NCBI GenBank assembly: GCA_026392155.1 | Contig: JAPLCP010000167.1 | Span: forward strand, 1 to 37,055 | Source of the DNA: Armatimonadota bacterium | Lineage (GTDB): Bacteria; Armatimonadota; Armatimonadia; Armatimonadales; Armatimonadaceae | Direction: 5' to 3' | Length of the DNA: 37,055 nucleotides | In this document: one piece after another, positions 606-26,062 of the stretch | How the letters are laid out: every line of letters starts with the position of its first letter | How positions within the stretch are numbered: position 1 is the stretch's first letter | Made by a program: the position numbers and the translations under genes | The notes under the pieces: model-generated | Told to the model about the DNA's origin: nothing | Databases searched by the model: none | Seen by the model: the letters and a program-made list of their open reading frames with translations, nothing else

Positions 606-614
606 CTTCTCTTG

Positions 615-1853
615 ATGCTGACACGACGGCGCTTTTTGGGTGCGCTTGGCCTTGCTCCGCTCACAGGTTGCGGTCGGAGCAGTGCACGCACCACCATACG
701 CTTCTGGAACGGCTTCACCGGCCCCGATGGACGCACGATGCTTCGGCTCGTCCGGCGCTTTAACGAGGAGAACCCGGAGATCACGGTGCTCATGCAGCGC
801 ATGGACTGGGGCACCTACTACAACAAGCTCTTCGTGGGTGGGTTGGGTGGCCGCGCCCCCGAGGTCTTTGTGCTCCACACCCGCGCCTTGCTCAGGTTCG
901 CTCGTGCGGGCTTTGCTGCGCCACTGGATCCGCTGCTGGGTGACTTTCCTGCGGCCACAGACGACCTCGATCCCAATGTCTGGGAGGCGGCAAAAGTTGA
1001 GGGAAGCCACTTTGGTCTCCCACTCGATGTGCATGCGATGGGCATGTACTACAACCGCAAGCTCTTCCGCGACTCGGGGCTCGATCCCCAGAAGCCTCCG
1101 AGCAATCGTGTGGAGTTTCTGGAGGCGATGCGCCGCATCAAAAAGCCCGGTAAAAACGGCGAGCCCGATCAGTGGGGCTACGTCTTTACTAACTTTGAGA
1201 CCTGCACCTACACGTTTCTCAAGCAGTTCGGCGGCTCGCCCTTCACGCCGGACTACGCGCGTTGCACGCTCAACAGCCCCAAAAATATCGCGGCGCTGCG
1301 CTTCTGCCACGATCTCATCAAAGATGGCCTCGTGCCCTCGCCGGAGAATATCGACTCCTGGATTGGGTTTCGCCAGGGGCGCATCGGGATGGTCTTTGAG
1401 GGCATCTACATGCTCGCCGACCTCCAGAAGCAGAAAGACCTCGACTTTGCAGGCGCTCCCGTGCCCCAAGTGGCCGATCACACGGCGGTCTGGGCCGACT
1501 CGCACAACCTCTGCCTGAAGTCAGGGCTCACTCCTGAGAAGCAGCAGGCGGCGTGGAAATTCATGCGCTTCCTCTCTGACAATAGCCTCGACTGGGCCGA
1601 CGGCGGCCAGATTCCGACTCGCCCGAGCCTGCGCAAGACCGAGCGTTTTGAGAAAATGGCGGTGCAGAGCGCCTTTGCAAAGCAAATCTCGTTTGTGCAG
1701 TACCAGCCGCGCCTGCCCTTTATCTTTGAGTATCAGACTGAGTACAACTTGGCGGTGGAGAAGATCCTGAGGGGCAAGGCCAGCCCGGAAGACGCGCTCG
1801 CCGCCGCCGAGAAACGCGTCAATGAGATTATCAAGCGGGAGGCGACGCCATGA
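615..1853 (+). CDS. ABC transporter sugar-binding lipoprotein (extracellular solute-binding family 1)
   Basis: This 412-aa protein begins with a twin-arginine-like basic stretch (TRRRFLGALG) and a lipobox PLTGC with Cys19, so it is probably an exported lipoprotein. The body resembles family-1 sugar-binding proteins: an IRFWNGFTGPDG strand, FNEENPEI, YYNKLF, a GLPLDVHAMGMYYN core, and a WKFMRFLSD C-lobe helix. It would capture an oligosaccharide and deliver it to the two permeases that follow with a 4-bp ATGA overlap and then a 1-bp TAATG overlap. The GH43 genes downstream suggest an arabino-oligosaccharide, as in AraNPQ systems; this is inferred. A TTG at 612 is in frame, but the ATG at 615 is preferred. 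No ATPase gene is present, as is common when a shared MsmX/MsmK-type ATPase serves several importers. Confidence 0.9.
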   Translation: MLTRRRFLGALGLAPLTGCGRSSARTTIRFWNGFTGPDGRTMLRLVRRFNEENPEITVLMQRMDWGTYYNKLFVGGLGGRAPEVFVLHTRALLRFARAGFAAPLDPLLGDFPAATDDLDPNVWEAAKVEGSHFGLPLDVHAMGMYYNRKLFRDSGLDPQKPPSNRVEFLEAMRRIKKPGKNGEPDQWGYVFTNFETCTYTFLKQFGGSPFTPDYARCTLNSPKNIAALRFCHDLIKDGLVPSPENIDSWIGFRQGRIGMVFEGIYMLADLQKQKDLDFAGAPVPQVADHTAVWADSHNLCLKSGLTPEKQQAAWKFMRFLSDNSLDWADGGQIPTRPSLRKTERFEKMAVQSAFAKQISFVQYQPRLPFIFEYQTEYNLAVEKILRGKASPEDALAAAEKRVNEIIKREATP

Positions 1854-2746
1854 CAAATAAATCCCCTTCCTTGCGGCAGGGAAGGGGCCAGGGGATGGGT
1901 TCCTGGCTCTTTGCCGCGCCGCACTTGATCCTCTTTGTCGCCTTTGTACTGGGGCCGCTGCTCTTTGGCCTGGGGCTGAGCCTGTTTCGTTGGGACATTC
2001 TGACCGCACGCCCCGCGCAGTTTGTGGGGCCTGCTAACTACCAAGAAGCGCTCAAGGACGAGTATGTCTACAAGGCGCTCTGGGCGACGGTGCGTTTTGT
2101 CTATCTCGCGGTTCCGGCGACCATTCTGCTGGGGCTCCTGCTGGCGGTTGGCCTCTCCCAGGTCAATGAGAAGCGCCGCGCGTTTTGGCGGGCACTGTGC
2201 TACCTGCCGCACCTGCTGACCGTGAGTGTGGTTGGCCTGCTCTGGCGCTGGTTCTACAACACGGAGTTTGGGCTCTTCAATGCCTATCTGAACAAGTTCT
2301 TTGGCATCAAGATCGCCTGGCTCTCGGACGTCAACTGGGCGATGCCCGCTATCGTGATCATGACCCTCTGGTGGACTCTGGGCGGGCCGATGCTGGTCTT
2401 TCTGGCAGCGATCCAGAACATCCCAAACTCTTACCACGAGGCCGCCGCCATCGATGGAGCGACGGGGACACAGGCGTTCTTTAAGATTACCTTGCCGCTC
2501 CTTCGCCCGGTGCTGCTCTTCTCGATGGTGATGAACGTCATCGGCTCCTTCCAAGTCTTTGGCCAGGTCTTCATGATCACCCGTGGCGGCCCCGAGCTCT
2601 CGACCCGAACCCTGGTGCAGTACATCTACGACACCGCGTTTAACAACTACCGCATGGGCTACGCCGCCGCAATCTCCTGGCTGCTCTTTCTCGTAATCGC
2701 CGTCTTTTCGATTATTCAGTTCCGGCTGATGCGGGAGTCCAAATAA
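1850..2746 (+). CDS. ABC sugar transporter permease, MalF/AraP type
   Basis: This 298-aa protein has six predicted membrane helices and the inner-membrane permease signature EAAAIDGATGTQAFFKITLPLL (EAA loop, residues ~196-217), where the ATPase docks. The start ATG overlaps the stop of the binding-protein gene (ATGA). The first ~17 residues (KSPSLRQGRGQGMG) are not permease-like: they are translated from a palindromic insert at 1863-1887, so the original N-terminus was probably shorter or replaced. The gene is followed by its MalG-type partner with a TAATG overlap. Together with the lipoprotein it forms the membrane part of an importer, probably for arabinan or other plant hemicellulose oligosaccharides. 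Confidence 0.93.
   Translation: MTNKSPSLRQGRGQGMGSWLFAAPHLILFVAFVLGPLLFGLGLSLFRWDILTARPAQFVGPANYQEALKDEYVYKALWATVRFVYLAVPATILLGLLLAVGLSQVNEKRRAFWRALCYLPHLLTVSVVGLLWRWFYNTEFGLFNAYLNKFFGIKIAWLSDVNWAMPAIVIMTLWWTLGGPMLVFLAAIQNIPNSYHEAAAIDGATGTQAFFKITLPLLRPVLLFSMVMNVIGSFQVFGQVFMITRGGPELSTRTLVQYIYDTAFNNYRMGYAAAISWLLFLVIAVFSIIQFRLMRESK
1858..1900. repeat. GC-rich palindrome inserted in frame at the permease N-terminus
   Basis: CCCCTTCC (1863-1870) and GGAAGGGG (1880-1887) form a perfect 8-bp inverted repeat around the loop TTGCGGCAG, followed by a CAGGGGATGGG tail. It is read through as KSPSLRQGRGQG, a composition foreign to permease N-termini. It resembles in kind the other in-gene palindromes of this window, although its sequence differs from theirs. 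Confidence 0.65.
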
Positions 2747-3570
2747 TGCGCCGACGGAAACTCTCGCCTGCGGAGCTGCTGATTGCAATCGCTGCTCTGA
2801 TCTTTGTCTTTCCCGTGGCGATGATCTTTATCACGTCGTTCAAGCCCGATGGCGAGGTGGTCAAGTTTGAGAGCATCTTCCCCAAGCACGCGACTCTGGC
2901 CAACTTCCAGGAGGTGCTGGGAACCCCCGAAGAGATTCCTCTCCTGCGCTGGTTTCTGAACTCGCTTGGGATCTCCACGGCGACCACGCTGCTGGTGCTC
3001 TGCGTGGCGTCGCTCTCGGCCTATGCGTTCGCGCGGCTGGAGCTGCCGGGCAAGAAATGGGTTTTCCCTCTGGTCATTGGGACGCTCATGGTGCCGGGGC
3101 AGATTCTCCTCGTGCCAGTCTATCTGGAGCTCAATGCCCTCCACTGGCTCGACTCGCCGCTAGCGCTGATCGTCCCGGCGGGCGGCAGTGCCTTTGGCTT
3201 CTTCATGCTCCATAGCTTCTTTATGGGAATCCCGCGCGAGCTGGAAGAGGCCGCAGAGATCGATGGCTGCTCGCGCTTTGGGATCTTCTGGAACGTGATT
3301 ATCCCGCTCTCCAAATCACCGCTGGCCGCGCTGGCGATCTTCACCTTTGTGGGCTCCTGGAATGACTTTCTCGGCCCGCTGGTGTACTTAGACTCGGTGG
3401 ATCACTACACGCTTCCGGTGGGAGTCGCGCTGTTTCAGAGCAGCTACGCCAGTGAGTACGGCCTGACTCTGGCGGCGGGCGTCCTGTGCACGCTCCCCAC
3501 CCTTCTCGCCTTTCTGATCTTCCAGCGCCACATTCTAGCGGGAATGGCGTCGTCGGGGCTCAAAGAATAA
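2746..3570 (+). CDS. ABC sugar transporter permease, MalG/AraQ type
   Basis: This 274-aa protein has six predicted membrane helices. Features of the MalG branch are visible: the FITSFKPDGEV N-terminal segment, FLNSLGIS, the EAA-loop motif LEEAAEIDGCSRFGIFWNVIIPLSKSP split here as EEAAEIDG and IIPLSKSP (residues ~165-186), and an Asn-Asp-Phe (WNDFLGPLVY) sequence. The start overlaps the upstream permease stop as TAATG, which predicts translational coupling and a 1:1 ratio. It completes the transmembrane pore of the importer. The GH43 gene that follows has no normal start codon after this gene's stop. Confidence 0.93.
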   Translation: MRRRKLSPAELLIAIAALIFVFPVAMIFITSFKPDGEVVKFESIFPKHATLANFQEVLGTPEEIPLLRWFLNSLGISTATTLLVLCVASLSAYAFARLELPGKKWVFPLVIGTLMVPGQILLVPVYLELNALHWLDSPLALIVPAGGSAFGFFMLHSFFMGIPRELEEAAEIDGCSRFGIFWNVIIPLSKSPLAALAIFTFVGSWNDFLGPLVYLDSVDHYTLPVGVALFQSSYASEYGLTLAAGVLCTLPTLLAFLIFQRHILAGMASSGLKE

Positions 3571-4694
3571 TTCAGCATGTCCATGATCCGGTGCTGGCAA
3601 AGAGCGAAGGTAAGTGGCATTTATTTTCAACCGGCAATGGGATTCCCTACCGGCTCTCCGATGATGGCGTGAGCTGGAAGTATGTTAAAGAGATTTTTAC
3701 GACGCTTCCTGCCTGGCACAAAGAGCTTGTTCCCGGCACGCGCAACCCGTGGGCACCGGACATCTCGTTCTGGGGTGGGCGCTGGCGGCTCGTCTACTCC
3801 GTCTCTACTTTTGGGAGCCAGCGCTCGGCGATTGGGATGGCGAGCTGTGAAAAACTCGGCGGTGATGGCTGGCGCGACGAGGGCCCGGTCTTTATATCGC
3901 AAAAAGGCGATCCCTACAACGCGATTGACCCCAATATCTTTGTCGAGAAAGATGGGACGCCCTGGCTGAGCTTTGGCTCGTTCTGGCAGGGGATTTTCTT
4001 GCTCAAGCTTGATCCCAAGACGGGCAAGCCCATTTCAAACGCGGTGCCCAAGTGTATCGCGGCCCGACCGGGCTCCACCGCGATCGAGGCTCCGTTTATC
4101 ACCCTGCGCGGCGGCTGGTACTACCTCTTTGTCAGCCATGACTTCTGCTGCCGGGGCGTCAATAGCACCTATAAAAGCGTCGTCGGGCGCTCCCAGAAAA
4201 TCGAAGGGCCGTATCTCGACCGCGACGGCAAGCCGCTCTTGCAGGGCGGTGGAACCGTGGTTTCTCAAGGCCAAGGGCGCTGGCGTGGGCCGGGGCACTG
4301 CGCCGTGGTGGGCGACACGTTTCTCTGCCACGCCTACGATGCGGAGAACAACGGCATCCCCACTCTCTTCATGGGCAGTCTGCGCTGGGATCGAAGTGGC
4401 TGGCCGAGCCTGAAAGATGCCCCCAAGCCGCCCAAGTGGATGGGCTTGATCGGGGCCTGGGAGCACACCCCCGAGGGCGGCGCGGCGACTATGCTCACCT
4501 TTAAGGCCGATGGTACCACCAGTGCGCCCGGTGGAACCTGGAGCCAAGAAGGACAGACGGTGACCGTTCACTGGCCCGATGCAAAAGCGCCGGGTGGTGC
4601 TTGGCAAGATAGGCTCACGCTCGCGAGAGACTTCGCCACCTACCAGGGAGTCAACCTGCAAGGGCACCCCCTGCGAGGCCGCCGCGTTGCCTGA
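3570..4694 (+). CDS. GH43 endo-1,5-alpha-L-arabinanase-like enzyme, apparently intracellular
   Basis: The 374-aa reading shows a five-bladed GH43 core with the three acidic residues in place (counted from 3570): Asp6 in HVHDPV, Asp120 in NAIDPN and Glu173 in STAIEAPF. The block SVSTFGSQRSAIGMA and FVSHDFCCRGVNSTYK is typical of endo-arabinanases. After about residue 290 comes a small beta domain (WMGLIGAWEH...) like the C-terminal domain of extracellular arabinanases. No signal peptide is visible. The start is odd: the only codons between the permease stop and the conserved HVHDP are ATA and ATT. The ATT at 3570 overlaps the TAA stop (TAATT), mimicking the TAATG junction one gene earlier. The alternative is GTG at 3486, deep inside the permease gene. 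The product probably cuts imported arabino-oligosaccharides. Confidence 0.85.
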   Translation: MQHVHDPVLAKSEGKWHLFSTGNGIPYRLSDDGVSWKYVKEIFTTLPAWHKELVPGTRNPWAPDISFWGGRWRLVYSVSTFGSQRSAIGMASCEKLGGDGWRDEGPVFISQKGDPYNAIDPNIFVEKDGTPWLSFGSFWQGIFLLKLDPKTGKPISNAVPKCIAARPGSTAIEAPFITLRGGWYYLFVSHDFCCRGVNSTYKSVVGRSQKIEGPYLDRDGKPLLQGGGTVVSQGQGRWRGPGHCAVVGDTFLCHAYDAENNGIPTLFMGSLRWDRSGWPSLKDAPKPPKWMGLIGAWEHTPEGGAATMLTFKADGTTSAPGGTWSQEGQTVTVHWPDAKAPGGAWQDRLTLARDFATYQGVNLQGHPLRGRRVA

Positions 4695-5691
4695 GCCGAC
4701 TCCCTGGAAAATCCCGGTGATGCGTGGCGCGATCCGGCAGCGTAGCGGGGCGCTTCTGGGGGCACGCACGGAGCATGGCAAAGATGGCGCAACGGTGCTC
4801 GCGTCTCAGAGCACGGACTCCGGTAAGACCTGGGGCGAGCCCGTCTCCATTATCCGCGACCCGGACAATGCCACGGATCTGGGCGATGGCGCATTTCTGG
4901 ACAGCAAGCGCCATGGGCTGCTCTATGTCTGCCGCCACAACCACCACGCCCAGAAATCCTACGCCATCGAGGTCTATCAGAGCATTGACTCCGGCAAGAG
5001 CTGGCAGCAGCACTCGACAGTTATTGCTAATTCACAGGGGCTTTGGGCCCCGTTTTTGTTTGATACTCCCGGCGGGCGCTTGCTCTGTGTCTACGACGAC
5101 GAAGAGACGCCGTTTCTGCGCGGCTTTCCAGGGCACCAGTGGCTCATGGGGCGCTTCTGGGACGCAAAAACAAAGACTTGGGGCGAGCCGGTTGTGGTCA
5201 GCCGCGCAGAAGATAAAAAGCTCTCCCGTGATGGCATGGGCACTGTCGTGAGTGTCGGGAAGCGCTTAATCTGTGCTTTGGAGAGTGTGGATACCGAGCC
5301 GCCCCATCCCGGCGTGATTCGTATTGTCACCAGCGACGACGACGGGCAGACTTGGGCACCGCGCCGCCTGCTCTTTCAAGCACCACAGCGCCCCCACATG
5401 GCCCTCTCGCCATTTCTCGCCAAGCGCACCGACGGCACTCTCATCTGCATCTTCGGCACCGATGAAGCCCAAGCCACGCCGGATAAGCCCGGCACACCCG
5501 CCCCCAAGCTCCACCTCGATATTAAGCTCTGCTTCAGCCACGATGGCGGCGCGAGCTGGAGTGCTCCAGAAACACTCTTTGTTGGCGGTCACCGAAACTA
5601 CCTACCGGGCCTGATCGCGCTTCCCAAGAACAAGCTCTATGCCCACTGGCTCAACTTTGCCGAAGATGCACTGCAAGGAACCATACTATGA
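4687..5691 (+). CDS. sialidase-fold (BNR/Asp-box) protein in arabinan operon
   Basis: About 334 aa from a TTG start that overlaps the end of the GH43 gene; ATG 4720 is an alternative that trims 11 residues. Four Asp-box motifs (S/T-x-D-x-G-x-T/S-W) are visible: STDSGKTW, SIDSGKSW, TSDDDGQTW and SHDGGASW. This is the signature of six-bladed sialidase-like propellers. No signal peptide is visible, so it should be cytoplasmic unless the start is wrong. The classical sialidase Arg triad cannot be assigned by eye, and in an arabinan locus a true sialidase is unlikely; related Asp-box proteins include exo-arabinosidases and uncharacterised hydrolases. The stop overlaps the next GH43 start (ATGA). 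Confidence 0.85.
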   Translation: MPEPTPWKIPVMRGAIRQRSGALLGARTEHGKDGATVLASQSTDSGKTWGEPVSIIRDPDNATDLGDGAFLDSKRHGLLYVCRHNHHAQKSYAIEVYQSIDSGKSWQQHSTVIANSQGLWAPFLFDTPGGRLLCVYDDEETPFLRGFPGHQWLMGRFWDAKTKTWGEPVVVSRAEDKKLSRDGMGTVVSVGKRLICALESVDTEPPHPGVIRIVTSDDDGQTWAPRRLLFQAPQRPHMALSPFLAKRTDGTLICIFGTDEAQATPDKPGTPAPKLHLDIKLCFSHDGGASWSAPETLFVGGHRNYLPGLIALPKNKLYAHWLNFAEDALQGTIL

Positions 5692-6593
5692 ATCCAATCT
5701 GCGCCGGGGCCGATCCCTGGGTAATCCACCACGACGGACAGTTTATTCTATGCCAGAGCCATCACAACGGGGTGGCGATTCGGCGAGCGGCGACACTGGC
5801 GGGGCTGGGCGTGGCGGTGATTGAGCCGCTCTGGCAGGCACCAGAGACGGGGCCGTTCTCGAAGGAAATTTGGGCACCGGAGCTGCATCTCTACCAAGGG
5901 CACTGGTATATCTATGTCGCTGCCGACGATGGGGAGAATAAAAACCATCGGATGATTGCGCTCCACTCGGCGAGCTTGCTGGGGCCGTATGTTTCTGTGG
6001 GGAAGCTGGCGCTCACGCCCGACCGCTGGGCCATTGACGGGACGCTGCTGGTGCATCCCAAGACAAAGCGGCTTTACTATCTCTGGTCGGGCTGGGAGGG
6101 CACGGAGAACACGGCGCAGCATCTCTATATCTGCCCGATGGCCGATCCGCTGACCCCGAGCGGCGAGCGCGTGAAGATTTCGTCGCCGGAGCTTGCGTGG
6201 GAAAAACGCGGCAGTGGCGGCCCAGGGAAGCTCCCCACGATCAACGAGGGGCCACAGGTTCTGGAGCGCAACGGGACGATTCATGTGGTCTACTCGGCGG
6301 CGGGCTCATGGTGCGATGACTACTGCTTGGGCCGCCTCACACTCCCACCCGGCGGCGATCCGCTCAGTCCGAGCGCCTGGAAAAAGCACCACGAGCCCGT
6401 CTTTGCAAAAACGACGAGTATCTTTGGGCCGGGGCACTGCTCGTTTGTGCGCGAGGGCAAGAAAAACAAGCAAGACTGGATTGTCTATCACAGTGCACGG
6501 CACGCGGGCTCCGGGTGGGACCGGGTGATCCGTGCGCAGACGTTTCAATGGGAAGGGGACATTCCTATCTTTGGAGCGCCGAGGGTATCCTAA
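5688..6593 (+). CDS. GH43 family glycoside hydrolase (alpha-L-arabinofuranosidase / exo-acting type)
   Basis: This 301-aa single-domain GH43 propeller has Asp9 (AGADPWV) as probable base, Asp117 (WAIDGTLL) as modulator and Glu187 (TINEGPQVL) as acid. The motif IWAPELHLYQGHWYIYVAADDG is characteristic (read as IWAPELH then WYIYVAADDG). No signal peptide is seen, so it probably acts in the cytoplasm on imported arabino- or xylo-oligosaccharides. The gene is coupled to the upstream Asp-box gene by an ATGA overlap. Together with the arabinanase-like GH43 at the front it gives an endo/exo pair. Beta-xylosidase activity cannot be excluded from sequence alone. Confidence 0.9.
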   Translation: MNPICAGADPWVIHHDGQFILCQSHHNGVAIRRAATLAGLGVAVIEPLWQAPETGPFSKEIWAPELHLYQGHWYIYVAADDGENKNHRMIALHSASLLGPYVSVGKLALTPDRWAIDGTLLVHPKTKRLYYLWSGWEGTENTAQHLYICPMADPLTPSGERVKISSPELAWEKRGSGGPGKLPTINEGPQVLERNGTIHVVYSAAGSWCDDYCLGRLTLPPGGDPLSPSAWKKHHEPVFAKTTSIFGPGHCSFVREGKKNKQDWIVYHSARHAGSGWDRVIRAQTFQWEGDIPIFGAPRVS

Positions 6594-9635: not shown

Positions 9636-10477
9636 GCTCTTAGCTGCCCTAAGAGCTTCTCGACAATGCGGCGCTGGGCACGAATATGAGCCGAAAGCGT
9701 GGCGGCGGCGCGGTCTAGGTCGCGCTCTAAGAGAGCATCTAAGATCGCGCGGTGCTGGGCCGCCATCGCGTCCTCCATCTTGGTCTCGGGCGCAGCATGA
9801 TCAAAAAGCGCCGTGAAGTACGCGCCGTGCTGGGCAAAGAGCTGGGTGAGGAGCGGGCTATTGGCGGCAGCGATGAGATAGCGGTGAAGGTTGTTGTCGA
9901 GCTGTGCTCCCTCATTGCCATCCCGAAGCCGCACGAGCACAGTCGGGTCAAGGTGCGGCCAGGCTTGCTCCAGCGCCAGAAGCTCCAGCCGCTCACGCAC
10001 CAGAAGCCAGTCTTCGACCGCGGAGAGAGTCAGCTCGCGGGCACGCCAGCCACAGCGGGGAACATGCTCCACAAAGCCCTGGCCCGCAAGCTGGTGCAGT
10101 GCCTGCCGCAGCACGGTCCGACCAATCTCTAGCCGCTCGGCGAGGGCTTCTTCACGCAGAAACTCTTGATCGCCCCGAAGCGAGCGCTGGAGAATATCGG
10201 TGCGTAGCTCGGCTTCCCAGTCGCGAGCCCACCCGAACCCACCCGCCTCGTTGTTCCTTTGCACCCTCCCTTTTCCAAAGGAGGGCCCCGGGTGGATTCT
10301 CCCCGTCGCGGACTTTGTTAAAAAACCTAACTCAATCAGCTCGCGCACGGCCTGGCGCACGGGGGTGAGGCTTACGGAGTAGCGTGTCGCCAGCGCGGCC
10401 AGTGTGAGGGGCTCCTCGGAGACAGGCGGGTTGGCCCGCAGATCATCGGCGATAAATTTAGATAAAGTTTTTGACAT
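9626..10477 (-). CDS. GntR-type regulator with two winged-helix domains and an FCD-like ligand domain
   Basis: This 283-aa protein (ATG 10477; a TTG at 10486 adds three residues) has a first winged helix at residues ~8-60 (LAALATRYSVSLTPVRQAVREL) read as LATRYSVSLTPVRQAVREL. A second copy at ~90-150 carries LAERLEIGRTVLRQALHQL. An all-helical FCD-type effector domain occupies ~150-283. Two tandem DNA-binding units are unusual; a normal FadR-type protein has one. The linker between them (IHPGPSFGKGRVQ onward) is encoded by a palindromic insert at 10235-10299. The gene is divergent from the deaminase gene, and its start codon lies inside that gene's promoter, so it probably represses the hydroxyproline genes and itself, with hydroxyproline or an intermediate as inducer. 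Confidence 0.9.
   Translation of the reverse strand: MSKTLSKFIADDLRANPPVSEEPLTLAALATRYSVSLTPVRQAVRELIELGFLTKSATGRIHPGPSFGKGRVQRNNEAGGFGWARDWEAELRTDILQRSLRGDQEFLREEALAERLEIGRTVLRQALHQLAGQGFVEHVPRCGWRARELTLSAVEDWLLVRERLELLALEQAWPHLDPTVLVRLRDGNEGAQLDNNLHRYLIAAANSPLLTQLFAQHGAYFTALFDHAAPETKMEDAMAAQHRAILDALLERDLDRAAATLSAHIRAQRRIVEKLLGQLRAQS
10235..10299. repeat. palindromic element inside the GntR linker
   Basis: Outer arms GAACCCACCC (10235-10244) and GGGTGGATTC (10290-10299) pair at 9 of 10 positions. Inner arms CCCTCCCTTT (from 10264) and AAAGGAGGG (10277-10285) pair with one bulge. The element is about 65 bp and is read without a stop in the regulator frame, adding roughly 22 residues rich in Gly, Arg, Pro and Asn between the two winged helices. 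Confidence 0.7.
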
Positions 10478-10499
10478 TGTGTGCAAGATGAATTATAAT
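10471..10499 (+). promoter_or_regulatory. perfect sigma70-type promoter of the deaminase-peptidase operon
   Basis: TTGACA (10471-10476), a 17-bp spacer, and TATAAT (10494-10499): a full match to the sigma70 consensus. The ATG at 10506 starts 6 nt after the -10 box, so transcription would begin at or next to the start codon (leaderless). A promoter this strong normally needs tight repression, which fits the divergent GntR gene. Confidence 0.8.
10477..10486. promoter_or_regulatory. probable GntR operator between -35 and -10
   Basis: TTGTGTGCAA has TTG...CAA dyad arms and lies between the -35 and -10 boxes, overlapping the regulator's own start. FCD-type GntR sites often have TTG-N4/5-CAA-like dyads. 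A bound repressor here would block both directions. This is inferred from position and symmetry only. Confidence 0.4.
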
Positions 10500-10505
10500 C
10501 CATGC

Positions 10506-11420
10506 ATGATAAATAATCAAATCTCTCCCGTTTCTTTTTGTGGTGTCTTTCCTGCCGTCACCACCCAGATGCACCAAGACCAGAGCATTGACTGGGCAGC
10601 ACAGGCAAAGCACCTTGAGATTCTCATTGACTCGGGCATTCACGGCCTGATCCTATGCGGCTCACTGGGCGAGAACCAGACCCTGCTTCCCGAAGAGAAG
10701 CGCGCCGTAGTCAAGCATGCCAAAGAAGTCGCGGCAGGGCGCTTGCCCGTGCTCTCGGGCGTGGCGGAGATGAGCACGGCAGCCTCTTGTCAGTATGTTC
10801 AGGACATGGAAGCGCTTGGCGCGGATGGCGTGATGGTGCTTCCCGCGATGGTCTACAAGTCCGATCCACGCGAGACAATGGCGCACTTCCGCACGGTCGC
10901 TGCGGCCAGCAAGCCCCCGATCATCGTCTACAACAACCCCGTGGGCTACGGCGTGGACATCACCCCCAAGATGTTCGCTGAGCTCTCCGATGTCGAGACC
11001 CTCGTGGCGATTAAAGAGTCCTCGGCGGACACCACGCGCATCACCGAGCTCTACAATGCCTGCGGCGACCGCTATGCGATCTTCGGCGGCGTGGACACCA
11101 TTATCCCTGAGTGCGTCTTGATGGGCGCAACGGGCTGGATCGCCGGGGTCGGCCTCGCCTTCCCCAAAGAGAACGCCCGGATGTGGGAGCTGATGATGGC
11201 GGGGGATTGGGACAAGGCTCGCGAGCTCTGGCGCTGGTTTTTGCCCCTGATGACCCTCGATATCGGCCCGCACTTTGTCCAGAAGATCAAGCTTGTGCTT
11301 CAAGAAGCGGGCCTCGGAAGCGAGTGGGTGCGTGCCCCGCGCCTCACCCTCGCCGGCACCGAGCGCGACGAGATTCTTACCCTGATCCACAAAGGGCTCT
11401 CGGAGCGACCCAAACTATGA
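10506..11420 (+). CDS. DapA-family lyase, probably 1-pyrroline-4-hydroxy-2-carboxylate deaminase
   Basis: This 304-aa (beta/alpha)8 class-I aldolase-fold protein has Lys170 (VAIKESS) as Schiff-base residue, Tyr142 in YNNP, and a GSLGE phosphate/carboxylate-loop equivalent at residues 52-56. The family also includes dihydrodipicolinate synthase, N-acetylneuraminate lyase and KDG-type enzymes. The region also holds a hydroxyproline epimerase, an FAD D-amino-acid oxidase and a prolyl peptidase, so the deaminase step of trans-4-hydroxy-L-proline breakdown (EC 3.5.4.22, giving 2-oxoglutarate semialdehyde) is the best call. It starts 6 nt after a consensus -10 box, and its stop overlaps the peptidase start (ATGA). 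The semialdehyde dehydrogenase for the next step is not in the window. Confidence 0.85.
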   Translation: MINNQISPVSFCGVFPAVTTQMHQDQSIDWAAQAKHLEILIDSGIHGLILCGSLGENQTLLPEEKRAVVKHAKEVAAGRLPVLSGVAEMSTAASCQYVQDMEALGADGVMVLPAMVYKSDPRETMAHFRTVAAASKPPIIVYNNPVGYGVDITPKMFAELSDVETLVAIKESSADTTRITELYNACGDRYAIFGGVDTIIPECVLMGATGWIAGVGLAFPKENARMWELMMAGDWDKARELWRWFLPLMTLDIGPHFVQKIKLVLQEAGLGSEWVRAPRLTLAGTERDEILTLIHKGLSERPKL

Positions 11421-13807
11421 AAAACTACCCGACGGTTATCATCGGGATGGTTGTGTTGGTATTAGGGGTATCGGGGATGGCACAGGCGCAGGGAACGAAG
11501 GCGGACTACGAGCGGGCGAGCAAGCTCGGGGAGCTGTCGCGCGGGAAAGTCTTTCGTGCGAGTGTCGCACCCAACTGGCTGGAGGGTGGACGGCTCTGGT
11601 ACCGGGTGGAGACGGGGGCAAACGCCTTTGAGTGGGTGCTGGCTGAGGCCGATGGTAAGCTGCAGCGCTTTCCTAGTGAGGCGGCGCTCAAGGCCGCTTT
11701 AGGAGGAAAGCTCGGCACGGAGAGCGTCCAGCGACTCACGACACGGCCTCAGCAGGGCGAGGCGGGCGAGCGGGTGGATCTGGTTTTCGACAATCAGACC
11801 AGCAGCGAGCTCTCTCTGTTCTGGGTGAGTGGCAGCGACCGCACGCCCTACGGGAAAGTGGCACCAGGCAAGAAGTACAGCCAGAGCACGTTTGGTGGCC
11901 ATGCCTGGGAGGTGCGCGATGCCAGCGGGAAAGTGCTGGGCTATGCGACGGCTCCCGCGCTGGGGGGCACGGTAGTCGTGGATGGCAAGCGTGCCGCCCC
12001 GACGCGGCGCGAGGCGCAGCGCGGCGGAAATCCGGGTGCATCGCCCGATGGGAAGTGGATTGCCTTTGTAAAAGGCGACAACCTCTGGGTGCGCCCCAGC
12101 GCGGGCGGCGAGGCCGCAGCGCTGAGCACCGATGGCAAGCCCAAAGACTCCTACGATGGCACGGGATTTTTCTGGTCGCCCGATAGCACCAAAGTGGTCG
12201 CGTTTCGCACCGAGGCCGCGCAGGAGCACAAGGTCTATATCGTGTCGTCGTCGCCTAAAGAGCAGGTGCAGCCCAAGCTCGTGACGCTAGACTACCTCAA
12301 GCCCGGCGATAAGATCGAGCACCCGCGCCCGGTTTTGTTTGATGTGGTGAATAAGAAAGCCATGGCGCTGAACGAGTCGCTCTTTCCTGAGCCCTGGAGC
12401 CTGCCTGCACTGGGCGACTCGGGCTGGGGCGCGGGCGTGACTTGGAGTGCGGACTCATCGCGGTTCTTCTTTGCGTACAATCAGCGCGGCCATCAGCTCA
12501 TGCGCGTGATCAGCGTAGACGCGGCAAGCGGCACCCCCAAGACACTCTTTGAGGACGCGACCAAGACTTTTATCAACTACTCAGGCAAGTTCTGGGCACG
12601 CTACTTGGCAAAATCCAATGAGATTGTCTGGACGAGCGAGCGTGATGGCTGGAATCATGTTTTTGTACACGATGCCACAAATGGAAAGCTAAAGCGGCAG
12701 CTCACCCAGGGCGAGTGGACCGTGCGCGGCGTGGAGAGCTTCGACGAAGACAAAGGTGAGCTGCTGCTCCGAGTCGCAGGGCGCACGCCCGGCGAAGACC
12801 CGTATCACGTTCACTATGCCCACGTCTCGGTAAGTAGTGGCACACTCACGCCCCTCACCGACGGCGACGGCACGCACCGCATTGCTCTCTCGCCCGATGG
12901 CACGCGCTACTTGGACAGCTACTCCCGCGTGGACTTGCCGACGATCACCGAGCTACATAGCACATCGGATGGCAAGAAGCTCGCGACTCTTGAGAAAGGC
13001 GATGCGAAAGCACTGCTAGCCACCGGCTGGAAGCAGCCCGAGCGCTTTGTGGCAAAAGGCCGCGATGGCCAGACCGATATCTACGGCGTGCTCTGGCGGC
13101 CCACGAACTTCGACCCCGCAAAAAAATACCCGGTTATTGAGCAGATCTACGCCGGGCCGCAGGGCTTCTTTGTCCCGAAGCAGTGGAGCAGTAGCTACGG
13201 CAACGCCCAACAAATCGCCGAGCTGGGCTTTCTGGTGGTGCAGATCGATGGCATGGGCACCGATGGGCGCAGCAAGGCGTTTCATGATGTCTGCTTCAAG
13301 AACCTCAAAGATGCCGGCTTCCCGGATCGGATTCTCTGGATGAAGGCGCTGGCCCAGAAGTACCCATCACTCGACCTCACCCGCGTGGGAGTCTATGGCG
13401 GGAGCGCAGGCGGCCAAAACGCGCTGGCCGCGCTCCTCTGGCACGGGGATTTCTATAAAGCTGCCGTCGCCGACTGTGGCTGCCACGACAACCGCATGGA
13501 CAAGGTCTGGTGGAACGAGCAGTGGATGAGCTACCCGGTGGATAAGTCCTACGAAGAGAGCTCCAATGTGGTCAATGCCCACCTGCTCACCGGCAAGCTA
13601 TTGCTCACGGTCGGCGAGGTAGACAGCAACGTAGACCCCGCCAGCACGATGCAGGTCGCCGATGCCCTGATCAAGGCCAATAAAGACTACGAGCTGATTG
13701 TCTTCCCCGGCGCGAACCATGGCGCAGGCGAGAGCCTCTACGGCAAGCGCCGCCGCATGGACTTTTTTGTCAAGAACTTACTGGGAGTGGAGCCGAGAGG
13801 GAAGTAG
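11417..13807 (+). CDS. exported S9 (DPP IV-like) prolyl peptidase with an embedded VHL-type beta domain
   Basis: This 796-aa protein has a Sec signal peptide (residues 1-25, ending AQA). Residues ~116-190 resemble the von Hippel-Lindau beta domain: LVFDNQTS, LFWV, PYGKVAPG, STFGGHAWEVRDA. Against human VHL the pocket residues map as Trp88 to Trp136, Tyr98 to Tyr145, Ser111 to Thr158, His115 to His162, Trp117 to Trp164, with Asn78 as Asn126. A DPPIV_N-like propeller follows (SPDG/SPDS repeats, ~205-530), then an alpha/beta hydrolase with Ser663 (GGSAGG), probable Asp736 (GEVDSNVDP) and His768 (GANHGAG). S9B enzymes release X-Pro dipeptides. The gene overlaps the deaminase gene by ATGA. The inferred role is to bind and trim hydroxyproline-containing peptides outside the cytoplasm. 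The VHL assignment rests on alignment by eye. Confidence 0.92.
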   Translation: MKNYPTVIIGMVVLVLGVSGMAQAQGTKADYERASKLGELSRGKVFRASVAPNWLEGGRLWYRVETGANAFEWVLAEADGKLQRFPSEAALKAALGGKLGTESVQRLTTRPQQGEAGERVDLVFDNQTSSELSLFWVSGSDRTPYGKVAPGKKYSQSTFGGHAWEVRDASGKVLGYATAPALGGTVVVDGKRAAPTRREAQRGGNPGASPDGKWIAFVKGDNLWVRPSAGGEAAALSTDGKPKDSYDGTGFFWSPDSTKVVAFRTEAAQEHKVYIVSSSPKEQVQPKLVTLDYLKPGDKIEHPRPVLFDVVNKKAMALNESLFPEPWSLPALGDSGWGAGVTWSADSSRFFFAYNQRGHQLMRVISVDAASGTPKTLFEDATKTFINYSGKFWARYLAKSNEIVWTSERDGWNHVFVHDATNGKLKRQLTQGEWTVRGVESFDEDKGELLLRVAGRTPGEDPYHVHYAHVSVSSGTLTPLTDGDGTHRIALSPDGTRYLDSYSRVDLPTITELHSTSDGKKLATLEKGDAKALLATGWKQPERFVAKGRDGQTDIYGVLWRPTNFDPAKKYPVIEQIYAGPQGFFVPKQWSSSYGNAQQIAELGFLVVQIDGMGTDGRSKAFHDVCFKNLKDAGFPDRILWMKALAQKYPSLDLTRVGVYGGSAGGQNALAALLWHGDFYKAAVADCGCHDNRMDKVWWNEQWMSYPVDKSYEESSNVVNAHLLTGKLLLTVGEVDSNVDPASTMQVADALIKANKDYELIVFPGANHGAGESLYGKRRRMDFFVKNLLGVEPRGK

Positions 13808-15779: not shown

Positions 15780-16697
15780 ATGCAGCGTATCTCTGTGATT
15801 GACTCCCACACGGGCGGCGAGCCCACACGCTTGATTATCTCCGGTGGCCCCGACCTAGGCAATGGCCCGCTCTCAGAACGCGTCGTTATTTTTGAGCGCG
15901 ACTTTGACCACTTTCGCCGCGCTACGGTCAACGAGCCGCGCGGCTCCGAGGTGATCGTCGGGGGGCTGATTGTCGAGCCGCATGCGCCGGGCTGTGTCTG
16001 CGGGATTATCTTTTTCAACAACGTCGGCTACTTGGGGATGTGCGGCCATGGGACGATTGGGCTTGTCGCGACACTAGCCTACCAGGGCAAGCTCGGCCCT
16101 GGCACGCACAAAATAGACACCCCCGTCGGGGTTGTCAGCGCGACTCTCCACCCCGATGGCCGCGTGAGTATCGAGAATGTCGTGAGCTACCGTACTGAGA
16201 AAGCCGTCGTGCTCACGCTCCCCAGTGGGCAGCGGGTCACGGGCGATATTGCCTGGGGCGGCAACTGGTTCTTTCTCTGCGCGGATCATGGCGAGGAAGT
16301 CAGCGTCGGCAATGTCGAGCGGCTTACCGCGCTCTCGTGGGAGATTCGGCGCGAGCTTAACAAAACCCACCCCGAGCTCGATCATATCGAGCTTTTTGCC
16401 CCGCCCGGCGACCCCGAAAACCACTCACGAAGCTTCGTCCTCTGCCCCGGCGGCGCGTACGATAGATCGCCCTGCGGCACTGGCACCAGCGCCAAGCTCG
16501 CCTGCCTCGCCGCCGATGGCAAGCTCGCGCCCGGGGAGATTTGGCGACAAGAGAGCGTGATTGGCTCCGTGTTTGAGGGCGGCGTCCAGCCTGTCGAAAA
16601 CGGCTTCATCCCCACCATCACCGGACGGGCGTGGATCAGCGCGGAGGCGACGTTGCTTCTGGACAACACCGATCCGTTTTGCTGGGGAATTGGATAG
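15780..16697 (+). CDS. 4-hydroxyproline 2-epimerase (proline racemase family)
   Basis: This 305-aa protein has both catalytic cysteines: Cys88 in MCGHGTIG and Cys232 in [10 protein letters not shown], with Asp228 beside the second. The Cys/Cys pair separates epimerases and racemases from the dehydratase branch, where the first Cys is replaced. The opening [11 protein letters not shown] block and the short length fit hydroxyproline epimerases (EC 5.1.1.8), which convert trans-4-hydroxy-L-proline to cis-4-hydroxy-D-proline. The following FAD oxidase gene is the usual next step and supports this over proline racemase. Start ATG 15780 follows TAAAAT by 9 nt. Confidence 0.93.
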
Positions 16698-16701
16698 GCT
16701 C

Positions 16702-16896
16702 ATGCTGAAAGCCCCCGTTGGCTACCGCTACTTGGGGCGAGGGACGCAAGGCCGTGGCGAAATTTGGACGGAGTACCTGAGCGACTCGAAACAGTGTGCT
16801 TGTGGTGCGATGTACATTGACGTGGATGCCGGGCGCTTTGGCTCATGTGATGGCGACCAGACCGTTCTGGTCTACCAGAAAAACTCCCCACAGTAG
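16702..16896 (+). CDS. 64-aa hypothetical protein between epimerase and oxidase genes
   Basis: The ATG lies 4 nt after the epimerase stop, and the frame ends 16 nt before the oxidase start. The protein has a PVGYRYLGRG opening, a WTEYLSDSKQCACGAMYIDVD core with a Cys-x-Cys pair, a third Cys (GSCDGDQ) and no membrane segment. No family is recognised. The position, codon usage like its neighbours, and an ordered aromatic/glycine pattern suggest it is real, but it could be the remnant of a longer gene. It carries the oxidase promoter just past its stop. Confidence 0.5.
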   Translation: MLKAPVGYRYLGRGTQGRGEIWTEYLSDSKQCACGAMYIDVDAGRFGSCDGDQTVLVYQKNSPQ

Positions 16897-16899
16897 CGG

Positions 16900-16905
16900 T
16901 ACAAT
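16900..16905 (+). promoter_or_regulatory. -10 box TACAAT (GCGGTACAAT) before the oxidase, leaderless
   Basis: TACAAT ends 7 nt before the GTG start at 16913. The ten-base motif GCGGTACAAT recurs exactly at 21707-21716 before another gene. Confidence 0.65.
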
Positions 16906-16912
16906 AGCCGCT

Positions 16913-18166
16913 GTGACTGTCTGCATTTTAGGGGGGGGAATTATCGGCTTGTGCTCGGCGTGGTACGCGGCGGAGCGGGGCTTTGAGGTTGTTGTACTGG
17001 AGCGTGGGGCTGAGAGCAGCGATAGCTGCTCGCTGGGCAATGCGGGGATGATCGTGCCGAGCCACTTTGTGCCGCTCGCTGCGCCGGGGATGATGGCCTA
17101 CGGTTTGAAGCAGCTCGCTAACCCCGAGAGCCCGTTCTGGATTCGTCCCAAGCCCACCAAAGAGCTGATCGACTGGGGGCTGAAGTTCATGCAGTCCGCC
17201 ACACAAGAGCACGTGGACAAGAGTGCGCCGCTCTTGCGCGATCTGAATAATCTCAGCCGCGCCGAGTACGAAACCCTCGCCGAGAGCTTTGGCAATAGCT
17301 TTGGGCTGGTGAAGCGCGGCCTGCTCATGCTTACCAAGACTCAGCACGCCCTCGATGAAGAGATTGCGATGGCGGCAAAGGCGCGGGCGCTGGGAATTCC
17401 TGCGGAGGCGCTCACGCCCGAGGAGACTGCCAAGCTCGACCCCAACGTGACGATGGACATCGCAGGCTCCGTTTACTTTCCCAACGACTGCCACCTCTCG
17501 CCCGGAAAGCTGGTTGCGGGGATGAAGGCGCGGCTGGCCGAGCGCGGCGTGCGCTTTGTCTATCAGGCAGAGGTCACCGGCTGGATCACGACCAAGGGAC
17601 GGGTCACGGCAGCAATCACCCGCGCCGGGCAGTTTGAGGCCGATCAGTTCGTGCTCGCAGGCGGCGCCTGGAGCCCCGAGGCGGCGCGTGGGCTCAGTCT
17701 CTCGCTGCCGATGCAGGCGGGAAAAGGCTATTCCATCACTCTGGAAAACCCCAAGCAGCTCCCCGAGATCTGCTCAATCTTTGTGGAGGCACGCGTGGCG
17801 GTCACGCCGATGGGCGGCACGCTTCGCGTTGGGGGGACGATGGAGATTGCGGGCAACGACCTGTCGGTGAACCCGCGCCGCGTGGCAGGAATTGTCAAGT
17901 CCGTGCCGCGTTACTACCCGGCGTTCTCTGAGGATGACTTTGCCAATCTGCCGACCTGGAGCGGCCTGCGCCCTGTCAGTCCGGATGGCCTGCCCTACAT
18001 CGGGCGGCCCGCGAAGTGGAGCAATGTTGTGGTCGCCACGGGCCACGCCATGATGGGCCTCTCGCTCGGCCCTGTGACCGGCAAGCTGGTTGGGGAAGTG
18101 CTGGCGGGAGAGCCCACGAGCATCGCGCTCGACAGGCTCTCCCCTGATAGATTTTCTCCCCCCTAG
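16913..18166 (+). CDS. FAD-dependent D-amino-acid oxidase/dehydrogenase, probably D-hydroxyproline oxidising
   Basis: This 417-aa DadA/DAO-family protein has a dinucleotide-binding motif at residues 7-12 (GGGIIG) and ends in the typical FAD segment GLRPVSPDGLPYIG and ATGHAMMGLSLGP. The start is GTG 16913; earlier in-frame starts would include unrelated sequence. DadA-type enzymes oxidise D-amino acids. Following the epimerase gene, this one most likely oxidises cis-4-hydroxy-D-proline to 1-pyrroline-4-hydroxy-2-carboxylate, the substrate of the deaminase at 10506. The codons for the Gly-Gly-Gly motif contain eight G in a row (16931-16938), a slippage-prone tract. The last residues (FSPP) and TAG stop come from a palindromic element. 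Confidence 0.92.
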   Translation: MTVCILGGGIIGLCSAWYAAERGFEVVVLERGAESSDSCSLGNAGMIVPSHFVPLAAPGMMAYGLKQLANPESPFWIRPKPTKELIDWGLKFMQSATQEHVDKSAPLLRDLNNLSRAEYETLAESFGNSFGLVKRGLLMLTKTQHALDEEIAMAAKARALGIPAEALTPEETAKLDPNVTMDIAGSVYFPNDCHLSPGKLVAGMKARLAERGVRFVYQAEVTGWITTKGRVTAAITRAGQFEADQFVLAGGAWSPEAARGLSLSLPMQAGKGYSITLENPKQLPEICSIFVEARVAVTPMGGTLRVGGTMEIAGNDLSVNPRRVAGIVKSVPRYYPAFSEDDFANLPTWSGLRPVSPDGLPYIGRPAKWSNVVVATGHAMMGLSLGPVTGKLVGEVLAGEPTSIALDRLSPDRFSPP

Positions 18167-19881: not shown

Positions 19882-20003
19882 AATTGAGCGTCGGCAGTTG
19901 CGCAAGTGCCACGAAGCCCGTGCTGGGCTAGGGAAGTTGGTAGCCCGGCACGGGCTTTGCGGCTGAGGAACGAAGCCACTGCAGACGCCTAATTTCATTG
20001 GGC
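19873..20003. repeat. full palindromic REP-like element, downstream of the transposase
   Basis: Ends are GCCCAATGAAATT (19873) and AATTTCATTGGGC (ending 20003), perfect 13-bp terminal inverted repeats. Inside are GCGTCGGCAGT/ACTGCAGACGC and AAGCCCGTGC...GGGCTT arms. Both ends read GCC CAA TGA in the flanking genes (upstream plus-strand frame and minus-strand transposase), so the element gives both the same Ala-Gln-stop end. Confidence 0.88.
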
Positions 20004-20438
20004 GCTCTCTTCGGGCGTGCGTTCCAAGGCAGCTCTAAGTTGATCGTCCGCATGGTGTTGTTTTTGGTTTTTGACGTAGAGAATCGCATTTTCGCGATGG
20101 CTATGGCTCAAGGAAAATGCTGCGTAGCCATTGGCCCAGCGAAAGTGCTCATCGTGTGGAAACTCTTCGTTCAGAAGGTGCGAGCTGGTTCCTTTGAGCT
20201 GGTGCATGAGCTTTGCCAGACTAACCGATGATGGGAGCATCACAATGAGGTGGACATGATCGGGCATCCCATTAAGTGCTAGAATAGGCACTCGTAGCTT
20301 TTCTGCCTCTGCAGAAAGACAGCGATACGCCCGCCGCTCTCGCTCGCCAACCAAGTAGGGCTGACGCTTCCAGGTTGTCCAAACAATGTGTACCGTCAGT
20401 GCAATCAAGTTGCGTCGTGATCGTTCCGTAGTTTTCAT
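19995..20438 (-). CDS. REP-associated tyrosine transposase (Y1/HUH, IS200-like)
   Basis: This 147-aa protein has the HUH pair His61-Val-His63 in GMPDHVHLIV, the substrate-handling LKGTSSHLLNE block, and the catalytic Tyr121 in YVKNQKQHH with Gln125 one turn on. All parts of the fold are present, so it is probably active. Such enzymes nick and rejoin single-stranded DNA at hairpins. The last codons (ESAQ and TGA) overlap the palindromic element at 19873-20003, and another copy lies 67 bp upstream of its start. Unlike a true IS200, both flanks are REP-like palindromes with terminal inverted repeats. It is more similar to the RAYT group (tnpA-REP), judged from the layout. Confidence 0.92.
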   Translation of the reverse strand: MKTTERSRRNLIALTVHIVWTTWKRQPYLVGERERRAYRCLSAEAEKLRVPILALNGMPDHVHLIVMLPSSVSLAKLMHQLKGTSSHLLNEEFPHDEHFRWANGYAAFSLSHSHRENAILYVKNQKQHHADDQLRAALERTPEESAQ

Positions 20439-25461: not shown

Positions 25462-25707
25462 AAAAATGAAACGCAATCTTTTACCGTGCGCCTGCCAGCG
25501 GAGCTCTACGCGGCGAGTACCGCACTGGCTCAGGAGCGCCAGGTTAGCATGAACGCACTGATTCAGGAGCGCCTCTCGCTTCTAGTGCGTGAGGAAGCGC
25601 AGAAAAGCCTCTACGATGCCTTCAGCTTAGTAGGTGAGGACGAAGAAGAGTCGTCGGTTGCTTTTGCGCACGAGGCACAGGCAGAGGTAATCTGTCGCGA
25701 TGAGTGA
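25444..25707 (+). CDS. ribbon-helix-helix antitoxin of a MazEF-type pair
   Basis: About 87 aa. QSFTVRLPAELYAASTALA is a ribbon-helix-helix strand and first helix; SMNALIQERLSLL is the second. An acidic C-terminus (GEDEEESSVAFAHEAQAE) follows, suited to cover the basic toxin groove. Starts possible are TTG 25441, GTG 25444 and ATG 25453; GTG is 6 nt after a TATCAT. It overlaps the toxin start by 8 bp, typical of a coupled toxin-antitoxin unit in which the antitoxin is made first. Confidence 0.85.
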   Translation: MTKMVSKNETQSFTVRLPAELYAASTALAQERQVSMNALIQERLSLLVREEAQKSLYDAFSLVGEDEEESSVAFAHEAQAEVICRDE

Positions 25708-26062
25708 GCCAAAACGCGGCGAGCTTTTCTGGATAGACTGGTCACCGGGGCGCGGCTCGGAGCAGCAGGGCCGTCGCCCTGCCCTGATTGTCCAGACCGA
25801 TAGTGCCAACACCAATCCTCGTTACCCTAACACGATTGTGGTTGCGGTGAGCACCAAGGGCCGTCCGGTTCCTTTTCACATTGCGCTGGAACCCACGGCC
25901 CAAAGCGGTCTCAGTGAGCTCTCCTACGCCAAGTGCGAGCAGCTCATGACAATCAGCAAGGAGCGGCTGGGCGAAAAAATCGGCCAGATCACCCCCGAGG
26001 AACAGACTGCCGTAGACACCGCCCTGCGCCTGACGCTTACCCTAAACGAATACAGAGGATAG
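25700..26062 (+). CDS. MazF/PemK-family endoribonuclease toxin
   Basis: This 120-aa protein opens with RGELFWIDWSPGRGSEQQGRRPALIVQ (key residues R-G-E, D-x-x-P-x-x-G-S-E, R-R-P), the MazF signature, with Arg in GRRP as the expected catalytic residue and the following NPRYPNTIVVAVST strand. The C-terminal KCEQLMTISKERLGEKIGQI block is typical. It cuts mRNA at short motifs when the antitoxin is lost. The start ATG overlaps the antitoxin by 8 bp. Complete; no truncation is seen. Confidence 0.95.
   Translation: MSEPKRGELFWIDWSPGRGSEQQGRRPALIVQTDSANTNPRYPNTIVVAVSTKGRPVPFHIALEPTAQSGLSELSYAKCEQLMTISKERLGEKIGQITPEEQTAVDTALRLTLTLNEYRG

Follow-up and report, generated by a model that had tools for sequence, protein, structure and literature searches.

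Here, we report that an S9 peptidase encoded by an Armatimonadota bacterium carries a true VHL beta domain (PF01847), an identification that we regard as settled on homologue profiles and a predicted structure, and we propose that the protein is probably an exported exopeptidase in which this domain serves as a putative hydroxyproline-binding accessory module that would concentrate substrate. In that proposal, hydroxyproline binding, selectivity over proline and substrate delivery are what we infer. The gene was analysed within a window of 37,055 nt, meaning the whole stretch of DNA under study (assembly GCA_026392155.1, contig JAPLCP010000167.1, positions 1-37,055, forward strand), and its features are collected in Table 1.

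The peptidase is the 796-residue product of an ORF on the forward strand (11417-13807) and is of the DPP4/prolyl-tripeptidyl-peptidase-like type, having the expected architecture of a DPPIV_N propeller followed by a Peptidase_S9 domain with a Ser-Asp-His triad. Of the presumed triad residues, Ser663 is invariant among the orthologues and Asp736 and His768 are each at least 90% conserved. The initial annotation had described an exported enzyme of the prolyl peptidase family, which is borne out by the S9 domains and by an N-terminus that, judged by eye, resembles a signal peptide. It was also right about the coordinates of the ORF, the ATGA that it shares with the DHDPS-family gene upstream, and the presence of an epimerase and an oxidase in the same region. 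The linkers on either side of the VHL domain (residues 101-118 and 195-204) were modelled with pLDDT below 50, which fits, without proving, a flexibly tethered VHL module.

Table 1. Features of the peptidase gene and its hydroxyproline locus, in positions of the window
Feature	Position	Strand	Basis
Probable pyrroline-4-hydroxy-2-carboxylate deaminase (DHDPS family)	10404..11420	+	PF00701; recurrent neighbour of epimerase and oxidase
Predicted signal peptide for export, residues ~1-25 (...GMAQAQ)	11417..11491	+	Read by eye; low pLDDT at residues 1-22
VHL beta domain, residues ~118-189, seven predicted strands	11768..11983	+	Pfam, homologue profile, AlphaFold, Foldseek
Trp136 (human Trp88), pocket	11822..11824	+	Alignment
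Tyr145 (human Tyr98), pocket	11849..11851	+	Alignment
Thr158 (human Ser111, which binds the Hyp hydroxyl in human VHL)	11888..11890	+	Alignment; human role from PMC9528729
His162 (human His115, which binds the Hyp hydroxyl in human VHL)	11900..11902	+	Alignment; human role from PMC9528729
Trp164 (human Trp117), pocket	11906..11908	+	Alignment
DPPIV_N beta-propeller, residues 205-508	12029..12940	+	Pfam PF00930, 1.2e-41
S9 catalytic domain, residues 592-788	13190..13780	+	Pfam PF00326, 1.8e-44
4-hydroxyproline 2-epimerase	15780..16697	+	NF010577, 425 bits (cut-off 442)
DadA-like FAD oxidase, probable D-hydroxyproline dehydrogenase	16796..18166	+	Resemblance to DadA

Taken singly, the window protein is just under the Pfam gathering cut-off for VHL, which is 21 bits: at full length it scores 15.5 bits (E=0.018, match at residues 119-170), and its isolated domain reaches 20.2 bits. 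A phmmer comparison of the protein with the PDB gave E values of at least 1.5, yet all of the matches listed were VHL, and BLASTP against human VHL gave E=4e-4 for that single comparison. Orthologues were gathered from whole genomes, yielding 24 loci with a homologous VHL domain, the window's own included. Every one of the 22 aligned bacterial homologues matched Pfam VHL (best E=8.2e-13), and a profile built from these 22 retrieved PDB chains of VHL at E=4.6e-11, with the next non-VHL chain at 8e-4. The AlphaFold model of the domain (from 75 sequences) has seven strands and a pLDDT of 89.8, and its best 50 PDB matches by Foldseek were human or mouse VHL only, with TM scores of 0.58-0.75 by query and rmsd mostly of 1.5-3 angstrom. 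Hence the proposed VHL match stands in HMMER with PF01847 at the level of the family and is just under the cut-off for the window protein by itself, and structure prediction returned the VHL fold rather than a different one. A chance resemblance, or another beta-sandwich fold, could be argued from the sub-threshold single-sequence score, but the homologue Pfam matches, the profile and the Foldseek result make it vanishingly improbable, and we rejected it on these grounds.

In human VHL, the central hydroxyproline site consists of Trp88, Tyr98, His110, Ser111, His115 and Trp117, side chains that are buried and mostly aromatic, and the 4-hydroxyl is bonded by Ser111 and His115 (PMC9528729). The initial annotation had equated five residues of the window protein (W136, Y145, T158, H162 and W164) with human W88, Y98, S111, H115 and W117, and alignment confirmed all five. 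Their conservation in orthologues, which had been set beforehand as a refutation test, proved near-invariant in 79 non-redundant S9-fused bacterial domains (one or two of which may come from proteins other than S9 peptidases and have cleared the same threshold): Trp88, His115 and Ser/Thr111 are each present in 79/79, Tyr98 in 78/79, Trp117 in 77/79 and His110 in 63/79, and position 111 is threonine in 72 of the 79. Ranked by conservation, the same five positions fall within the top seven of 79 columns (hypergeometric 9e-7). The residues that line the HIF-specific flanks in human VHL (Asn67, Arg69, Phe91 and Arg107) are not conserved in the bacterial domains as they are in human VHL. VHL-like domains of sulfatases, of an AraC regulator and of the later repeats of a MACPF protein keep Asn78 and have mostly lost Tyr98, His115 or Ser111; since they retain the fold and mostly lose the pocket, the pocket is not simply a requirement of folding. 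Trp88 and Trp117 may belong to the core as well. One paralogous S9-VHL protein (L188) has lost the pocket.

The domain is not confined to one position or one kind of protein. It lies N-terminal to the propeller in most of the 24 loci and follows the hydrolase at the C-terminus in eight, and copies that retain the full pocket occur on an unrelated protein resembling HExxH zinc peptidases (L170-L172) and in stand-alone VHL proteins of 127-132 aa (L183, L186), which look secreted from their signal-like N-termini. The HExxH zinc-peptidase-like family (L170, L171, L172, L173 and L120:11790-13514) bears its VHL-like domain N- or C-terminally, and several members have apparent signal peptides; its catalytic part gave no Pfam match in the members tested, and a related protein in L185 gave weak M90/ATLF matches. 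Two regulators also carry such domains. One (L175:3875-4723) joins an ArsR-type HTH protein to a VHL domain whose pocket is intact; its contig also has a HypE gene and encodes an HExxH protein in which the VHL domain is degenerate. The other, of the AraC type, has its VHL-like domain at the C-terminus, with a degenerate pocket, and is divergent from a DadA-HypE-deaminase-ALDH operon (L195:5555-12614, G519:C1), so a VHL-like domain is also found in a likely hydroxyproline regulator. Three sulfatases (L182, L184, L190) have C-terminal VHL-like domains in which the pocket is partly lost. VHL-like repeats, about five in tandem, make up part of a MACPF protein of 1663 residues (L181:1091-6079), and the pocket of the first of them is nearly intact. 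One record titled Klebsiella pneumoniae (L102) has a VHL-S9 protein that groups with Verrucomicrobiota loci and is probably a mislabelled metagenome bin.

Around the window's peptidase gene, the trans-4-hydroxyproline operon set of epimerase, D-hydroxyproline oxidase and deaminase is found together, and an aldehyde dehydrogenase relative (39% identity) is encoded elsewhere in the same genome. The hydroxyproline locus of the initial annotation recurs: some two dozen loci of Armatimonadota and Verrucomicrobiota have the fusion gene inside a hydroxyproline operon. The gene order varies, aminopeptidase P is often present, and in some genomes aldehyde dehydrogenase is too. The orders include AMPP-deaminase-HypE-S9VHL-DadA (L149 and L150; L196 likewise, with aminopeptidase P), deaminase-HypE-S9VHL-DadA (L135, Verrucomicrobiota), ALDH-AMPP-S9VHL-DadA-HypE-deaminase (L049), S9VHL-HypE-DadA (L041, L043) and HypE-DadA-S9VHL (L037, L047), with L034 and L114 being one genome, as are L037 and L116, so that each pair should count once. 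By our estimate, the chance that a random gene has an epimerase within 10 kb is roughly 1% or less in a several-megabase genome. Hydroxyproline genes are absent near many VHL-S9 genes. Upstream of the peptidase, the window also contains ABC sugar transporter genes beside two GH43 genes and a gene for a BNR-repeat protein (612-6593), possibly for the use of arabinose-containing glycans; the GH43 and ABC transporter genes would fit arabinosylated plant hydroxyproline-glycoproteins, a connection that is only suggestive. Elsewhere in the window, two products resemble, by eye, a REP-associated tyrosine transposase (a small protein, 19995-20438) and MazF/PemK toxins of toxin-antitoxin pairs (25700-26062).

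Across genomes, the VHL domain and the epimerase tend to occur together. Among 291 genomes of the window's phylum, the VHL profile was found in 77, the epimerase in 92 and both in 45, the epimerase being missing from 32 of the 77 VHL genomes. Outside one large family (f14, of approximate size), VHL was present in 26 of the 28 epimerase genomes of this phylum, as raw counts that ignore kinship, and in Verrucomicrobiota it was present in 7/16 epimerase genomes versus 13/225 others (p=7e-5, kinship likewise ignored). Twelve close S9 orthologues lack the VHL domain, all but a few of them from Planctomycetota, and since they are scattered on the tree the domain has probably been lost several times. 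The epimerase was encoded in 19/38 genomes of S9 orthologues with VHL versus 7/12 of those without. The 12 VHL-less orthologues showed no hydroxyproline genes within 10 kb, and the contrast in neighbourhood (11/68 with VHL versus 0/12 without) is not significant (p=0.20). Thus, the predicted co-occurrence of the fusion with the epimerase was found, but it is not specific to the VHL-bearing S9 enzymes: as the epimerase is about equally frequent without VHL, the operon link is one of the enzyme as a whole and not provably of the VHL domain. A pure VHL-to-epimerase link was considered and set aside, being inseparable from the S9 link in the comparison with the VHL-lacking orthologues. It is the peptidase family that these data connect with the use of hydroxyproline.

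In light of these observations, what might the VHL domain do for the peptidase? S9 enzymes of the DPP4/prolyl-tripeptidyl-peptidase type act on proline peptides generally. One option is that it is structural, a spacer or a means of dimerisation, and that its conserved residues form an aromatic core and bind nothing, in keeping with its repeated loss in Planctomycetota from enzymes that retain the S9 core and with the buried, aromatic character of the human pocket. We consider this unlikely, because homologous domains elsewhere lose His115, Tyr98 or Ser111 where the S9-fused ones keep them almost always, and because the domain switches between the N- and C-terminus on linkers that are probably flexible. 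Another option is that unmodified 4-hydroxyproline in peptides is not what the pocket recognises, its ligand being plain proline or something else, such as glycosylated hydroxyproline or another cyclic residue. The general substrate preference of these enzymes, the usual threonine in place of Ser111, the unconserved HIF-specific flanks and the many carriers without an epimerase would all suit such a ligand; we nevertheless give it little credence, given that the hydroxyl-binding pair of Ser/Thr111 and His115 is kept without exception and that the operons serve 4-hydroxyproline.

The best explanation is that the domain is a putative reader of hydroxyproline peptides that feeds a prolyl peptidase. 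This reading is favoured by a pocket that is near-invariant in S9 fusions and mostly lost in the sulfatase, AraC and MACPF proteins, by the hydroxyproline operon setting, by the co-occurrence of VHL and epimerase, and by the occurrence of the intact-pocket domain on either side of the S9 core, on an HExxH protein or alone. In such a mechanism, the peptidase would be exported with its VHL beta domain on a flexible tether, and the aromatic pocket, as in human VHL with HIF, would capture the 4-hydroxyproline of extracellular proteins or peptides (of the collagen or plant extensin/AGP type). The held substrate would thus be concentrated at the peptidase, whose S9 site may trim at proline or hydroxyproline sites, and aminopeptidase P, the epimerase, the D-hydroxyproline oxidase, the deaminase and the aldehyde dehydrogenase would then complete the breakdown. 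As a substrate-binding module, the VHL domain would be analogous to the carbohydrate-binding modules of glycoside hydrolases.

The bacterial domain shares with the beta domain of animal pVHL (PF01847) its fold, its homology and the pocket residues Trp88, Tyr98, Ser/Thr111, His115 and Trp117 (with His110 in most copies); it differs in being fused to a predicted exported peptidase and in not keeping the HIF-specific flanks. The alpha domain and Elongin C binding region of pVHL as an E3-ligase receptor were not seen in the window protein, which has a low-confidence linker and the DPPIV_N propeller instead. On the peptidase side, the nearest PDB entry by both sequence and structure is the prolyl tripeptidyl aminopeptidase of Porphyromonas gingivalis (2d5l), which, as with bacterial DPP4, has the propeller and S9 catalytic domain in common with the window enzyme; identity in the structural alignment is ~22-23%, and the window enzyme differs in its additional VHL beta domain of ~75 residues. 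The enzymes around the fusion gene are the set of described bacterial trans-4-hydroxy-L-proline operons (epimerase, D-hydroxyproline dehydrogenase, deaminase and ketoglutarate semialdehyde dehydrogenase), except that here an exported VHL-fused peptidase is included, for which we found no description. Bacterial VHL domains are already present in databases, and in the open-access literature we found them treated only in one report, on the Litorilituus sediminis protein EMK97_00595, which like the window protein is bacterial, predicted to be secreted and VHL-bearing (PMC9002001). That report proposes a tumour-suppressor link and mentions no peptidase, and we saw in it no discussion of a hydroxyproline locus or proposal of hydroxyproline binding by the bacterial protein. 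Likewise, we found no hydroxyproline role for a bacterial VHL domain in the open-access literature.

The HIF-PHD-VHL triad is reported to exist in animals only (PMC6235002). With the VHL domain found in a bacterium, its pocket intact and its gene in a hydroxyproline operon, the fold gains a plausible job besides oxygen sensing, and its origin becomes testable. It is possible, although we hold this idea tentatively and would not yet expect it to be correct, that bacteria have long used the VHL beta domain as a putative hydroxyproline reader to aim secreted peptidases at hydroxyproline-rich proteins, and that the animal oxygen sensor took it over. If the proposed binding is true, secreted peptidases would have in this domain a substrate-targeting module of a new kind, and small single-domain hydroxyproline readers may be of use as reagents, for collagen or for proteins of the plant cell wall.
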